Assembly: GCA_017615545.1 (NCBI GenBank)
Contig: JAFZZY010000067.1
Span: 1-64,000, forward strand
DNA length: 64,000 nucleotides
Direction: 5' to 3'
DNA from: Lachnospiraceae bacterium
Lineage (GTDB): Bacteria > Bacillota > Clostridia > Lachnospirales > Lachnospiraceae
The position numbers were made by a program, and so were the translations under genes. Under the pieces are notes generated by a model that was not told where the DNA came from, did not search any database, and was given only the letters and a program-made list of their open reading frames with translations. Position 1 is the first letter of the stretch. The number at the start of each line of letters is the position of its first letter. Of this stretch, positions 10,713-27,463 are shown piece by piece.

Positions 10713-10735
10713 TCCGAGTGCGCTCTCCCGGTCCC

Positions 10736-11029
10736 TTACGCGCAGTTTCTTGCTTTAGGCTGTTTTGCGCGTAGGATCGGGGCTCTGGTCCGCTCTCCCT
10801 TACGCGCATTTTCTTGCTTTTTACTGTTTTGCGCGTAGGATTGGGGCTTCGGTCCGCGCTCCCTTACGCGCATTTTCTTGCTTTTCACTGTTTTGCGCGT
10901 AGGAATGTCCTCCCAGGTGGCCTGATCTTACGCGCATTTTCTTGCTTTTTTCTATTTTGCGCGTAGAACGAGTCTTCCAACCCCCAGTTTCTTACGCGCA
11001 TTTTCTTGCTTTTGGCTGTTTTGCGCGTA
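10736..11029. repeat. Five-copy 64-bp tandem repeat with a dyad-symmetric 38-bp core
   Basis: Cores of 38 bp start at 10736, 10800, 10864, 10928 and 10992, exactly 64 bp apart. Each begins TTACGCGCA and ends TGCGCGTA(A), giving 8-9-bp perfect arms around a conserved centre of about 20 nt (TTTTCTTGCTTTT...CTGTT). The 26-nt linkers vary, but the first two resemble each other. The array fills most of the 404-bp gap between the DUF3592-like gene (stop 11055) and the hydrolase start; I see no coding sequence in it. Confidence 0.95.
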
Positions 11030-11911: not shown

Positions 11912-14134
11912 TTAAATATCATACTTCGCCATGATCTCGGCGGGTGTCTTTCTCAGCAAGCGGAAGATAGGCAGCAACGCACAGATAACTGCGAGCAGAT
12001 ACAGGAAGACCAGCAACGGTACGCAGATCCACGCGGGGAGGAAGATCTCCATCTGCATGCCTGACCAATGCGTGATCCAGTGGATGATCCCGACCATGAT
12101 CAGATAGGTCGGGAGGATGTACATGGAAGCGGTCACCAGACCTTCCACCATAAAGCGGAAATACATGTTCTTCCGTGTTACGCCAATGCAGCGATATACA
12201 CCGATCTCGCGTACGCGGGACAAAACCGAGCTACGCATGATCATGAGCATGCAGAAACTGAGCAGGAGCACGAAGATCAGGACGGTCGCCATCTTCTTCA
12301 TTACCGCAGCCCGTGCTTCTCCGGCGATGTCATCCATCAGATCGTCCGGTGTCCAGATCCTCACACCATTTCCTGCAATGTTTTCGCGCAAAAAGGCTTC
12401 GGTGGCCTTCACATCGGTCGAATGGATCTGCACCTCGACTCTCTGATTTCGGTTTTTATCCGTGATCTCAAAACCATCCTTCATAAATCGACCGACATCC
12501 ATACTCTCGTCATAGCGATCGGCGCGACCCAGGTACAGGCCGGATACGCTTATATAGGCAGCCGGTTCATTCGCCTCCACAATACCGGCGATCCGATATC
12601 TGTTCAGAGCGAGGCCGATCAGATCCGACCTTCCCTTGATAAATCCCATTTTGGAACTTTTCACCATCTTATCGGCCATGAACGAAGTAATCAGGACTTC
12701 TCCCTCTTTCAGTTCATCGATACCGCGGCCGATGACCACTTTCTTACCTTCAGCAAGAGTCATCGGCAACATGACACCATTGGCCGTCATCGGAGAAACC
12801 ATTCCTATATATGAATGATCCCTATAGCGGAAGGTGTTAAACAAATCTACCGTTACGTCGAAGTCCACGGCGCCGGTCTCCATAATGCTGTCAATGCCGG
12901 CCTCCTTTGTCGCCAAAGCATCCAGAACAGGCTTCAGCGCATCGACCGATGCACGTACTTCAAATATGTTGTGATTGAACGAATCCTTTGCATCCAGATA
13001 GGTCTTGATATCCTTTCCGGCCATGGCGAAAAACAGAACGATGATCACGGCAAAAAATCCCATGACACGTTTCAGCATCTTATCGCCCTTCGTCTTGGGA
13101 CCGGCGATCTGCTGCGCACTTTCGCGCAGAGCATTCTTCCAGTGGAAGAGTCGTCCGAAACGCTTTCCCTCAAACGGCGGCAGGGTCTCCATGTGGACCG
13201 TCTGCTCCTTATGACGCTTCTCCTGCTCTTCTTCAAAGCTTCCCTCGCGGAAGGAGATCTCGCTGTTTGCATCCACCAGTTTTACCTTCGGAGAGTCGCA
13301 CATCAGCAGGATCGCGCCGTCGCGGTTGACGATCCGTACCGAAACCTCTTCCGGCAGATCGTCGCCATAGCAGCTCACGCGAACGTGCCCCAGCGTCGTC
13401 TCCTGCTTCTCGTAATCGCCCAGATAAACGACGTTTTTATCTCTGCCGACGTAGCCGTTGGCATCCTGGTTCTCCCGGATCTCCGTAACCTTGCCGTCCT
13501 TCAGGCCGATGACCTGATCGCAGTAATAGTCGACCAGCTCATTCTCGTGGGTAACGAGAAGAACGAGATGCTCTTTAGAAATGCTCTTCAGCAGATCCAT
13601 GATCACGATGGTGTTCGCCTCGTCGAGGTTTCCGGTCGGTTCATCCGCCAGGATGATGGCCGGGTTCTTTACGATGGCGCGGGCGATCGCGATCCTCTGC
13701 TTCTGGCCTCCGGACAATGTATCCGGCATACGATTGGCGAACTTCTCCATGCCAACATTGGCAAGTGCTGCATAAACGCGTTCACTGATCGTCTCCTCGT
13801 CCTCCATGCCGCACAGGCGAAGGCTCTCCGCTACGTTCTCGTAGTTAGTGACTTTCAGGTTCAGGTTGTAATTCTGGAAAATGTAGCCGATATAACGGTT
13901 ACGTAGATCGTCGGTGTTTTTGCGGATATCCTTTCCGTCGATCTCGATGCTTCCGCTCTTGATGCCGTCCAGTCCGCCGATGACGTTCAGCAGCGTCGTC
14001 TTACCGCAGCCGCTCTGACCGAACAGGGCTACCATTCCCTTTTGGGGCAGTTCGAGAGAAATATCATTGATGACATGGATCTCGTTCTGTTTACCCTTGA
14101 AAAAATATTTATTTACATTACTCAAACGGATCAT
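11912..14134 (-). CDS. MacB-type ABC transporter, ATPase fused to FtsX-like permease (second subunit)
   Basis: A 740-residue fusion. Residues 1-220 are the ATPase (Walker A GQSGCGKTTLL, Q-loop IGYIFQNYNLN, signature LSGGQKQR, Walker B IILADEPTG). About 100 residues of beta-rich linker follow. The permease part has one helix near 355-375, a large external MacB-like domain and three C-terminal helices (ending with MRSSVLSRVREIGVYRCIG). Such fusions export or resist antimicrobial peptides or lipoproteins through a mechanotransmission cycle; the substrate is unknown. It follows its partner at 14140 with 5 nt between genes, so they probably form a heterodimer. Confidence 0.88.
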   Translation of the reverse strand: MIRLSNVNKYFFKGKQNEIHVINDISLELPQKGMVALFGQSGCGKTTLLNVIGGLDGIKSGSIEIDGKDIRKNTDDLRNRYIGYIFQNYNLNLKVTNYENVAESLRLCGMEDEETISERVYAALANVGMEKFANRMPDTLSGGQKQRIAIARAIVKNPAIILADEPTGNLDEANTIVIMDLLKSISKEHLVLLVTHENELVDYYCDQVIGLKDGKVTEIRENQDANGYVGRDKNVVYLGDYEKQETTLGHVRVSCYGDDLPEEVSVRIVNRDGAILLMCDSPKVKLVDANSEISFREGSFEEEQEKRHKEQTVHMETLPPFEGKRFGRLFHWKNALRESAQQIAGPKTKGDKMLKRVMGFFAVIIVLFFAMAGKDIKTYLDAKDSFNHNIFEVRASVDALKPVLDALATKEAGIDSIMETGAVDFDVTVDLFNTFRYRDHSYIGMVSPMTANGVMLPMTLAEGKKVVIGRGIDELKEGEVLITSFMADKMVKSSKMGFIKGRSDLIGLALNRYRIAGIVEANEPAAYISVSGLYLGRADRYDESMDVGRFMKDGFEITDKNRNQRVEVQIHSTDVKATEAFLRENIAGNGVRIWTPDDLMDDIAGEARAAVMKKMATVLIFVLLLSFCMLMIMRSSVLSRVREIGVYRCIGVTRKNMYFRFMVEGLVTASMYILPTYLIMVGIIHWITHWSGMQMEIFLPAWICVPLLVFLYLLAVICALLPIFRLLRKTPAEIMAKYDI

Positions 14135-24069: not shown

Positions 24070-25578
24070 CTACCTCGCAAAATGTAAGTTCACTATGGTC
24101 TGAGCCGCTTCTTCGATCGTGGTCACATTGTCCACGGTCGCATCGGCAAATGCTTCGTAGAGGGCGCGGCGCTTCTCGTACAGGGTCTGCACCGACTGCT
24201 GCTCAGACAGAGGGCGGCCTGCGACCGCCAGGTTCTCGAGCGGGCGCTTCAGGTAGTAGATGCGACCGTTCTGCTTAAGCAGGGCTTCATTTTCCGGGCG
24301 GACGACCACGCCACCGCCACAGGACAGCAGGATGCCCGGCTGCTTCGTCAGGTCCGCGAGGACCTCCGTCTCGATCTTGCGGAAAGCGTCCTCGCCATCC
24401 GCCAGGATGATCTCCTTCGGGGTGCGGCCGGTGCGCTTCTCGATCTCGACGTCGCTGTCGACCACCTCACGTCCCGTCAGGCTGCCGATCGCTCTCGCGA
24501 CCGAAGATTTGCCGCTGCCCGGCATCCCGATGAGGACGATACTCGTCGTGCGCGCCGCGATATCGTCGTACACTTCGTCGATCTTCTCGCGTGCGATCGT
24601 CGCGTCGGTGAAGACCTCACATGCGCGCGCCGCCTGCGCCGTCAGCATCTCGAGTCCATTGACCGCGAGCATGCCCGCCTGCTCCGCCAGCAGCAGAAGC
24701 TTCGTTTTCGCCGGATTGAAGATCAGGTCGATGACGACTTTACAATTTGTGAAATACGTAGGATCCACCACGCTCACGCCGTTTTCCGGGAACATCCCGA
24801 CCGGCGTGGTGTTGATGATCACGTCGGCGTCGCGGTTTTTCTCCAGATTGTCGTAGTTATCCTCGCCGTGGCGGGAAATGGTGACCACGCGCGCGGCGCC
24901 GAGGTCGGTCGCCAGCACGCGCACCATCGCAGCGGCGCCGCCGTCCCCGAGGATGATGATCTTCTTACCCTGAAGGTCGATGTTATGCTTTTCGATGGAA
25001 TATTTGAGTCCGAAATAATCGGAATTATCGCCATAGAGTGTACCGTCCGCACGGCGTACTACGCAGTTCACGCTGCCGATGCGCTTCGTCGTCTCCGAAA
25101 CCTCGTCGAGATACGGCAGGACCGCCTTCTTATACGGGATCGTGACATTGATCGCGGTGAAACCGCCGTTCTTCAGGAAGTCCTCGAGTTGCTCCGGCTC
25201 GCGCTCAAAAAGGGCGTACTCGTAGCCGCCGAACTTCCGATGGAGGTACGGCGAGAAACTATGTCCCAACTTGCGGCCCAGCAAGCCGTAGCGCGCAGGC
25301 TTCTCCTCATCCGCGAGCTTCTGCTCCTGAAAACTTCTGCACGCGTCCATGACACCCTGGAAGCACTGTGCGCCGTACGGATAGGTCTCGGCGCGGAATA
25401 GTTCGCGGAGCGACTCGATCTTCTGCGCCTCGCGGCTGCGATCCAGGATCGGAAGGCCTTTCGCCTTTTTGTATCCGTAGATTCCGGACACAACGTCCAT
25501 GCGTTGCTCCAGAAGCTCCGCGATCTCTCGGTCAATGCGGTCGATTGCCAGCCGCAATGTCTTTATATCTTCTTGCAT
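24070..25578 (-). CDS. Trifunctional chorismate mutase - shikimate dehydrogenase - shikimate kinase
   Basis: A 502-residue fusion. Residues 1-88 are an AroQ-class chorismate mutase (LRLAIDRIDREIAELLEQRM, YKKAKGLPILDRSRE). Residues 95-370 are AroE: GHSFSPYLHR (105-114), NVTIPYK with the catalytic lysine at 150, DNSD at 184-187 and nucleotide loop GDGGAA (211-216). Residues 345-500 are AroK: P-loop GMPGSGKSS (351-359), EDAFRKIE, CGGGVV, AGRPL. It thus performs two shikimate-pathway steps plus the first step after chorismate. The start at 25578 is chosen from AAAGGA and the CM N-terminus; the longer frame runs into the repeat array. Confidence 0.93.
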   Translation of the reverse strand: MQEDIKTLRLAIDRIDREIAELLEQRMDVVSGIYGYKKAKGLPILDRSREAQKIESLRELFRAETYPYGAQCFQGVMDACRSFQEQKLADEEKPARYGLLGRKLGHSFSPYLHRKFGGYEYALFEREPEQLEDFLKNGGFTAINVTIPYKKAVLPYLDEVSETTKRIGSVNCVVRRADGTLYGDNSDYFGLKYSIEKHNIDLQGKKIIILGDGGAAAMVRVLATDLGAARVVTISRHGEDNYDNLEKNRDADVIINTTPVGMFPENGVSVVDPTYFTNCKVVIDLIFNPAKTKLLLLAEQAGMLAVNGLEMLTAQAARACEVFTDATIAREKIDEVYDDIAARTTSIVLIGMPGSGKSSVARAIGSLTGREVVDSDVEIEKRTGRTPKEIILADGEDAFRKIETEVLADLTKQPGILLSCGGGVVVRPENEALLKQNGRIYYLKRPLENLAVAGRPLSEQQSVQTLYEKRRALYEAFADATVDNVTTIEEAAQTIVNLHFAR

Positions 25579-25608
25579 TTCATTCTTCCTTTCGGAGTTT
25601 TTGAAGGC

Positions 25609-26400
25609 ATAACCACCTATTTCGTTGTTTCCGCCTTTCAGGAGGTCTTTTGAAATTTCATCTCTCCGAAAAGACCTCCTATTTCGTTGTTTCGACCTTT
25701 CAGGAGGTCTTTTCAAATTTCGTCTCTCTGAAAAGACCTCCTATTTCGTTGTTTCGACCTTTCAGGAGGTCTTTTGAAATTTCGTCTCTCTGAAAAGACC
25801 TCCTATTTCGTTGTTTCGACCTTTCAAGAGGTCTTTTGAAATTTCGTCTCTCTGAAAAGACCTCCTATTTTATCGTTTTGGCCTTTCAGGAGGTCTTTTG
25901 AAATTTCATCTCTCCGAAAAGACCACCTTTTTCACTGTTTCCGCGTTTTAGGAGGTCTTTTCAAATTTCGTCTCTCTGAAAAGACCTCCTATTTCGTTGT
26001 TTCGACCTTTCAGGAGGTCTTTTCAAATTTCGTCTCTCTGAAAAGACCTCCTATTTCGCTGTTTCGGCCTTTCAGGAGGTCTTTTCAAATTTCGTCTCTC
26101 CGAAAAGACCTCCTATTTCGTTGTTTCGACCTTTCAGGAGGTCTTTTCAAATTTCGTCTCTCTGAAAAGACCTCCTATTTCGTTGTTTCGACCTTTCAAG
26201 AGGTCTTTTGAAATTTCATCTCTCCGAAAAGACCTCCTATTTCGTTGTTTCGACCTTTCAGGAGGTCTTTTCAAATTTCGTCTCTCTGAAAAGACCTCCT
26301 ATTTCGTTGTTTCCGCCTTTCAGGAGGTCTTTTGAAATTTCGTCTCTCTGAAAAGGCCGCCTATTCTGTCGTTTTGCCTTTTAAGAGGCTTTTCAAATCA
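25609..26400. repeat. About thirteen 62-bp tandem dyad-symmetric repeats between aroC and the CM-aroE-aroK gene
   Basis: A unit marker (CCTAT or its variant) recurs at 25616, 25678, 25740, 25802, 25864, 25926, 25988, 26050, 26112, 26174, 26236, 26298 and 26360: a period of exactly 62 bp with no indel. A typical unit is AAAAGACCTCCT, 21 nt, AGGAGGTCTTTT (perfect 12-bp arms), then a 17-nt linker containing GAAATTTC. The array starts in the aroC stop codon and ends next to the following ribosome binding site, filling the 814-bp gap. I see no gene in it. Confidence 0.97.
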
Positions 26401-27463
26401 TCAGGTCCGCTACTACGATTGCTGCTACTGCTTCTGCCACGGGTACGGCTCTCGGCACGATGCAGGGGTCGTGGCGGCCAACGATGGAAAGTTTCTTATC
26501 TGCCTGTTCTGAAAACGACACACTCTCCTGCTCTTTTGCGATGGAGGGTGTGGGCTTGATGGCCAGGCGGAAGATCACGGGCATGCCGTTTGTGATGCCG
26601 CCCAGGATGCCGCCGGCGTGGTTGGTCTTCGTGACCACGCGTCCGTCCTGCATGGTGTATGCGTCATTGTTCTGGGAGCCGCGCAGCTGCGTCGCCGCGA
26701 AGCCCTCGCCAAACTCGAGTCCTTTCACCGCCGGGATGCCGAAGAGAGCCGCAGCCAGGCGGTTCTCCACCCCGTCAAACATCGGATCGCCGAGGCCCAC
26801 GGGAAGTCCCGTGATCACACACTCGATCACGCCGCCGACGCTGTCTAAGTCCATCCGCGCCGCGTCGATCGCCTGCATCATCTTCTCGCCCGCCGCATCC
26901 GACAAAACGGGAAATGCCTTATCCCCGACGTAAACTTCAGAAGCATCCTCGATCATCGGATCGATCGCAGTGTCGCTGACATCGGCGATCCGCGCGATGT
27001 GCGCCGAGATCTTCACACCGAGTGTCTCCAGATATTGCAGGCAAATGCCGCCCGCGATGCACAGGGGCGCCGTCAGCCGGCCCGAAAAATGGCCGCCGCC
27101 CGCCACGTCCTGGAAGCCGTGATACTTCATCTGCGCGGTATAGTCCGCATGCCCGGGGCGCGGAACATCCCGCAGGTTGTCGTAGTCGCCCGAGCGCGTA
27201 TTGGTATTATGTATGATCGCCGTCAAAGGAGCGCCGCAGGTGACATCGTCCACCAGACCCGCCAGAAACTCCGGCGCGTCGGCCTCCTTCCGCTGTGTCG
27301 AAAAACGGTCCCGTCCCGGCGCGCGCCGGCTCATAAACTGCTTAAGCCGCTCCTGATCCACGTGGATCCCGGCCGGCAGCCCATCCACGGTCACGCCGAT
27401 CGCCGCCGAATGCGACTGTCCGAACACGGATACCTTAATCTTGTTCCCGAATATCGATGCCAT
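26393..27463 (-). CDS. aroC: Chorismate synthase
   Basis: Last shared step to chorismate, converting EPSP with reduced FMN. 356 residues. Family motifs present: GQSHSAAIGVTVDGLPAG, RRAPGRDRFSTQRKEAD, NTNTRSGDYDNLRDVPRPGHADY, HFSGRLTAP and RGSQNNDAY. It overlaps aroA by 29 bp, and GGGAG lies within the aroA end. The stop codon lies inside the first repeat of the 62-bp array, so the array begins exactly where the gene ends. Confidence 0.97.
   Translation of the reverse strand: MASIFGNKIKVSVFGQSHSAAIGVTVDGLPAGIHVDQERLKQFMSRRAPGRDRFSTQRKEADAPEFLAGLVDDVTCGAPLTAIIHNTNTRSGDYDNLRDVPRPGHADYTAQMKYHGFQDVAGGGHFSGRLTAPLCIAGGICLQYLETLGVKISAHIARIADVSDTAIDPMIEDASEVYVGDKAFPVLSDAAGEKMMQAIDAARMDLDSVGGVIECVITGLPVGLGDPMFDGVENRLAAALFGIPAVKGLEFGEGFAATQLRGSQNNDAYTMQDGRVVTKTNHAGGILGGITNGMPVIFRLAIKPTPSIAKEQESVSFSEQADKKLSIVGRHDPCIVPRAVPVAEAVAAIVVADLMI

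Follow-up and report, generated by a model that had tools for sequence, protein, structure and literature searches.

Tandem stem-loop arrays in an aro operon and across one Lachnospiraceae genus: possible REP-like repeats with family-fixed spacing

We looked at a 64,000-nucleotide stretch of DNA (the window) from the genome of a Lachnospiraceae bacterium, in which a tandem array of palindromic 62-bp units lies inside the aro operon. In the explanation that we prefer, and to which we give an even chance of being right, this array belongs to a genus-restricted group of extragenic stem-loop arrays, similar to REP, BIME and REPIN repeats, which are read as sense-strand hairpins by a trans-acting factor. 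The array looks REP-like, and not like a switch of the aro genes, because dozens of similar arrays are found through the genomes of this genus of rumen bacteria. What appeared as a single oddity becomes a genome-wide, genus-specific class with a fixed arm, a fixed loop length, a fixed period and free linkers. Several families exist in one genome and their abundance differs between sister species, so that cognate factors can be searched for by presence and absence. If a function can be shown, such arrays would represent a new bacterial way of marking intergenic DNA or RNA; if they have none, they would be a remarkable example of REP-like repeats whose hairpin ends are maintained by selection.

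The array in the aro operon

The genes of the operon are all encoded on the minus strand. They are, in order, a pheA-like gene, DAHP synthase, a tyrA-like gene, aroB, aroA, aroC, the array, a chorismate mutase-AroE-AroK fusion gene and aroQ. Gene names were read from the translations, and those of aroC, the fusion gene and aroQ are backed by NCBIfam. Upstream of the array is aroC (26393..27463, minus strand), which encodes a chorismate synthase of 356 amino acids (TIGR00033, PRK05382), and downstream is the fusion gene (24070..25578, minus strand; 502 amino acids, NCBIfam profiles), a single reading frame at 24070-25578 that joins chorismate mutase, shikimate dehydrogenase and shikimate kinase.

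Within the window, Tandem Repeats Finder reports the 62-bp unit in 12.7 copies at 25612-26398, with 91% matches, 0% indels and a score of 1259. The sense strand of the array is the minus strand, on which the unit reads AAAAGACCTCCT, a 21-nt loop, AGGAGGTCTTTT and a 17-nt linker. The initial annotation described thirteen units, each with perfect 12-bp arms around 21 nt, spaced exactly 62 bp apart without an indel. A grid of 13 units does fit the array (first start 25606, last 26350) and the 21-nt loop was recovered, but the arms are perfect over 12 bp in only 8 of the 13 units, as in the full stem-loop at 25669..25713 (minus strand; arms 25669-25680 and 25702-25713 around a 21-nt loop), and carry one mismatch in three others. 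The register is likewise exact except at the aroC-side terminal unit, which is about 2 nt short. Both terminal units are degenerate, with 5 and 7 arm mismatches. The aroC-side unit (26350..26398, minus strand) supplies the aroC stop codon (26395-26393, minus strand), which comes from the repeat sequence TTTGAAAAG, and the unit on the side of the fusion gene (25606..25650, minus strand) has AGGTGGTTATGCC in place of AGGAGGTCTTTTC. The array therefore does begin in the aroC stop codon, as had been proposed; its other end was placed beside the next ribosome binding site and actually stops about 15-20 bp short of the Shine-Dalgarno-like GAAAGGAAG of the downstream gene, read from the sequence at 25585..25593 (minus strand).

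One explanation is that the array has a role in the aro operon itself, where its row of hairpins would either protect the mRNA or terminate it between the early and the late aro genes. The array does lie exactly between aroC and the fusion gene and its predicted structure is strong. The partial termination put forward earlier finds no counterpart in the sequence, since no intrinsic terminator (a G+C-rich stem, a loop of 3-8 nt and a T run after the stem) is predicted inside the array and the loops of the whole class are 20-24 nt long; one prediction falls outside it, at 26607-26619 on the opposite strand. No promoter is predicted inside the array, and no Rfam family scores above its gathering threshold in the window or in three further stretches (L101, L114 and L124).

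The comparison with other members of the genus also argues against an aro-specific role. In the sister species G002 (Lachnospiraceae MAG RGIG7558, from water buffalo omasum) the orthologous aro site carries 5 units, compared with 13 in the window, and G001 (RGIG7058, from sheep rumen) has an array there whose copies are not countable, as two contigs end within it. G003 (UBA1201), with the same local gene order, has no array at this site, and its aroC stop and the start codon of the fusion gene are about 30 nt apart. Its AroC is 95% identical over the matched segment and has a longer C-terminus. In our reading the aro array was inserted in one lineage and took the place of the aroC end. Neither presence nor copy number is stable at the locus, copy number varies freely in sister arrays elsewhere, and the same class of array is found at many unrelated loci, with about 27 similar arrays in 1.33 Mb, all of which makes aro-specific regulation very unlikely. 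The gap between aroC and the fusion gene in G003 holds ATAGGATGCATTTC, which reads as a single half-site of F62, the 62-bp family described below, and is possibly a relic. AroC was not detected in the genomes of G004 or G005, the latter 98% complete; loss of the aromatic pathway and an assembly gap are both possible reasons for the missing chorismate synthase.

A class of arrays with several arm families

Within its own genome (G000) the aro array is unique, although it forms part of a genome-wide class. About 27 arrays of like architecture were identified by Tandem Repeats Finder in about 1.33 Mb of this genome, a partial catalogue that covers those 1.33 Mb. All of them are intergenic, with no predicted gene inside, and the genes that flank them are of mixed function and form no evident regulon. 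The element of the class is a palindrome of about 36 bp, built from two arms of 7-9 bp with a loop of 20-24 bp between them, and its period is 52, 62, 64, 73, 74, 75 or 85 bp, which corresponds to about 5, 6, 7 or 8 turns of the helix. Arms that stand alone between genes are rare.

At least eight arm families were distinguished, each with its own constant arm, loop length and period: a 64-bp family (TACGCGC-N23, in full TACGCGC-N23-GCGCGTA), the 62-bp family F62 (GCATCCT-N21), a 52-bp family (F52; TACGGCT-N22), a 73-bp family (GGCTAAG-N23), a 75-bp family with a period of 85 bp at one locus (ATGCCTAA-N20), two 74-bp families (GCGAACAA-N20 and TGCTAAC-N24) and the 62-bp aro family (ACCTCCT-N21). 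The aro array has the same geometry as F62 (7-N21-7, period 62) and shares five of the seven arm letters with it; as only two arm positions differ, the aro family is most simply an arm variant of F62. Additional arrays with a 74-bp period were seen at L101 16124-16536 (arms CCAAAT/ATTTGG) and, in G003, at L162 8617-8947 (CCACCA/TGGTGG), and these probably represent further families.

The window holds a second array, with 5 units of the 64-bp family (10732..11029, minus strand), between two minus-strand genes, and orthologous arrays exist in G001, G002 and G004. Other arrays common to orthologous loci are found beside an SbcD-like gene, metE and pgi. At metE the number of 64-bp units is 8 in G000, 5 in G001, 5 in G002 and 14 in G005, and that of 73-bp units is 9, 2, 1 and 1, respectively. 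Several draft contigs of G000 start or end inside arrays (starts of L095, L096 and L126, end of L099; contig ends C37, C49 and C5), so the arrays fragment assemblies, and their number in metagenome-assembled genomes may be underestimated.

Matches to the family probes come back in other members of the genus, with next to none in the other genera tested. For the 64-bp family, whole-genome pattern counts in the six genus members are 48, 34, 47, 43, 5 and 64; among 55 other genomes only G032 gave matches, two lone ones, and no match was found in other genera among 397 genomes of the family. The 73-bp family is counted 40, 1, 13, 0, 0 and 3 times in G000 to G005 and has single matches outside the genus in G030 and G045. 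The 75-bp family occurs 19 times in G000; of 391 further genomes of the order, three have one match each. In another genus a match of 45 bp (L078) was considered as an array and rejected, since it stands alone and no array is there.

Strand, spacing and the reading of the arms

By comparing the units within 19 arrays we found a mean mismatch of 7% in the arms, 24% in the loops and 26% in the linkers. The argument from conservation rests on these other arrays, since in the aro array the arms (10% mismatch between units) are no better kept than the linkers (6%); such a low linker divergence is as expected from a recent expansion. Between arrays of the same family at different loci the arms are mostly 86-100% identical (73% in F62), while the loops are usually about half identical and the linkers usually near 30%, which is close to random, and the period is unchanged. 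The exception is one F52 pair that retains 83% loop and 70% linker identity.

This pattern bears on the idea that the arrays are neutral slippage repeats, in which the likeness of the arms is kept only by hairpin-driven correction. Hairpins are prone to replication slippage and copy number varies freely, as such a process would have it. Drift, on the other hand, would make the arm consensus diverge from one unlinked locus or species to the next, and the consensus is constant while the linkers are random-like, so we regard neutrality as a most improbable account.

What the arms are kept for may be approached from the strand on which they change. Arrays were oriented by their flanking genes, and the arm transitions that leave a G.T or an A.C pair on the sense strand were counted. 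The result is 20 G.T against 6 A.C, where control columns predict 51% G.T (one-sided p 0.007), from 26 events of which some come from orthologous arrays and with a few arrays oriented by one flanking gene; after collapsing orthologous arrays by hand about 18 G.T and 5 A.C are left. This asymmetry favours a predicted hairpin on the gene-sense strand over recognition of the duplex. It does so equally for the transcript and for the lagging-strand template, which have identical sequence where genes are co-oriented with replication. The initial annotation had expected a string of hairpins in the operon mRNA, and the sense-strand hairpin gains support here; thirteen separate local hairpins do not, because each arm can pair with either neighbouring arm and the folded aro RNA is not simply 13 local structures. 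The minimum free energy z-scores of the aro array (-22.5 for the sense strand, -16.1 for the opposite one) are uninformative, as any inverted-repeat array would yield such values.

Other possible signs of RNA structure were set aside. Covariation inside the loops is not above that of shuffles, and apparent inner stems in the loops of the 73-bp family were discarded. A purine-rich sense orientation was rejected as evidence for RNA, since the sense strand is purine-rich in any case in 83% of co-directional intergenic regions, and a CAAG motif common to loops (6.7 arrays against 2.7 expected) is too weak to use.

Another hypothesis is that the arrays are binding platforms on duplex DNA, where the arms are protein half-sites about 3 turns apart and the dyads lie 5-8 turns apart, allowing an assembly on one DNA face with a role in architecture, insulation or regulation. 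The proposal that 62 bp, close to six turns, would bring every dyad to the same face gains weight at the level of the class. Family periods cluster at 52, 62-64, 73-75 and 85 bp, and a Rayleigh test at 10.5 bp gives R 0.88, p ~0.001 and a mean phase of 0.1 bp, which is only suggestive, given the few families and a majority at 73-75 bp. The periods near 5, 6, 7 and 8 turns, the step from 75 to 85 bp in the ATGCCTAA family, which is one turn, and the combination of free loops and linkers with arms that are invariant and fixed in their spacing all fit such a platform. Exact spacing at whole turns is not needed for RNA hairpins and suits duplex DNA better, which counts against the hairpin model. 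Yet the sense-strand wobble asymmetry is not expected for duplex recognition, nor is the mixed function of the flanking genes, with no evident regulon, what a platform of this kind would suggest. We therefore consider the duplex platform doubtful, although exact spacing and helical phase keep it a serious rival.

A third possibility is that the elements are mobile, similar to REPINs or MITEs, and are mobilised by a transposase with specificity for the arms, the arrays being mainly a by-product with no function for the host. Constant ends with a variable interior and the many families agree with this, as do the gain of an array at the aro locus and a G002 site with about 720 bp that are absent in G000. 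A Y1-type (RAYT-like) transposase gene is present in G000, G003 and G005. In G000 and G003, however, it adjoins a different repeat (GGGGACGGTTC/TGTCAC) with no array arms beside it, and it was not found in the array-bearing G001, G002 and G004, so that it was rejected as the mover of the arrays; the rarity of isolated intergenic arms also speaks against mobility, which we find unlikely. The RAYT-like gene is single-copy and follows a GreA-like gene (G000:C64, G003:C42), and the palindromic repeats that flank it are unrelated to the array arms.

The extra DNA in G002 lies at 12800-13518 of G002:C1 (L170), and the orthologous G000 site is near 2470 of L141. It contains an array with a 61-bp period and aro-like arms, a long ATCATAGTGCCCGGGGGCTGT palindrome and a GGAACCGTC/TGTCA repeat, and the G000 counterpart ends in an intrinsic-terminator-like CAGGAGG/CCTCCTG hairpin.

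Returning to the sense-strand hairpin, the elements would be amplified in tandem at a family-specific period near whole helical turns, and a putative trans-acting factor would recognise the arm in each of them when the sense strand is single-stranded and folded into a hairpin, be it as transcript or as lagging-strand template. Slippage or unequal recombination may then alter the copy number. No trans-acting factor was found for the arms, which weighs against this model. In the aro operon the array would lengthen the message by about 790 nt of structured, untranslated RNA, and the effect on it would be at most modulating, for example through a 3'-end block or lost translational coupling.

Relation to known repeat systems

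Our literature search, incomplete in its coverage, found no description of such arrays. We tentatively suggest, with low confidence, a system with multiple specificities, distinct from RAYT/REPIN, CRISPR and known terminators, in which each arm family would have a putative factor of its own, sensitive both to the arm sequence and to the helical spacing of the tandem stem-loops, at dozens of sites between genes. The BIMEs of enterobacteria consist of inverted units in alternation, separated in turn by a short and a long spacer, and lie in tandem between the genes of operons; their units are REPs, which form hairpins on their own and are known to bind IHF, gyrase or Pol I. The arrays described here also alternate inverted arms with short and long spacers and are tandem and intergenic. 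They are unlike BIMEs in that a BIME unit folds alone as a hairpin.

The unit of 52-85 bp, the palindromic repeat ends and the intervening sequence of fixed length are reminiscent of CRISPR arrays (general description in PMC3733652). Unlike in CRISPR, where the repeats are near-identical and the spacers unique, the interiors of the repeats differ between units as much as the linkers do, linkers are often duplicated and there are many families, scattered over the genome. No cas genes were recognised by eye among the immediate neighbours of the arrays, and both CRISPR and type III antitoxin arrays were rejected, as the neighbours are by inspection housekeeping or unrelated genes and the loops vary.

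REPs tagged with GTAG or CGTC carry one of these tags at their end and have loops mostly of 2-5 bp (PMC3733652). Like our arrays, they are short stem-loops in many families that are often specific to a genus or species, sometimes in tandem with flanking DNA (PMC3733652). The arrays show by inspection no constant tag, in contrast to these repeats, and their loops are 20-24 bp long. The window's genome seems to have, in addition, a separate CGTC-like repeat, the GGGGACGGTTC beside the RAYT-like gene.

The REP and REPIN repeats of Pseudomonas and E. coli are extragenic palindromes with several families per genome and evenly spaced tandem arrays (PMC3116915). The elements in this genus resemble them in having two inverted conserved ends and a variable interior, in being extragenic and in their many copies (PMC3116915). 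They differ from RAYT-associated REPs and REPINs in that the RAYT-like gene of the genus adjoins a different repeat and not the array arms, and from REPs and REPINs as a whole in their arms of 7-9 bp, their loops of 20-24 bp and a spacing, fixed within each family, near whole helical turns.
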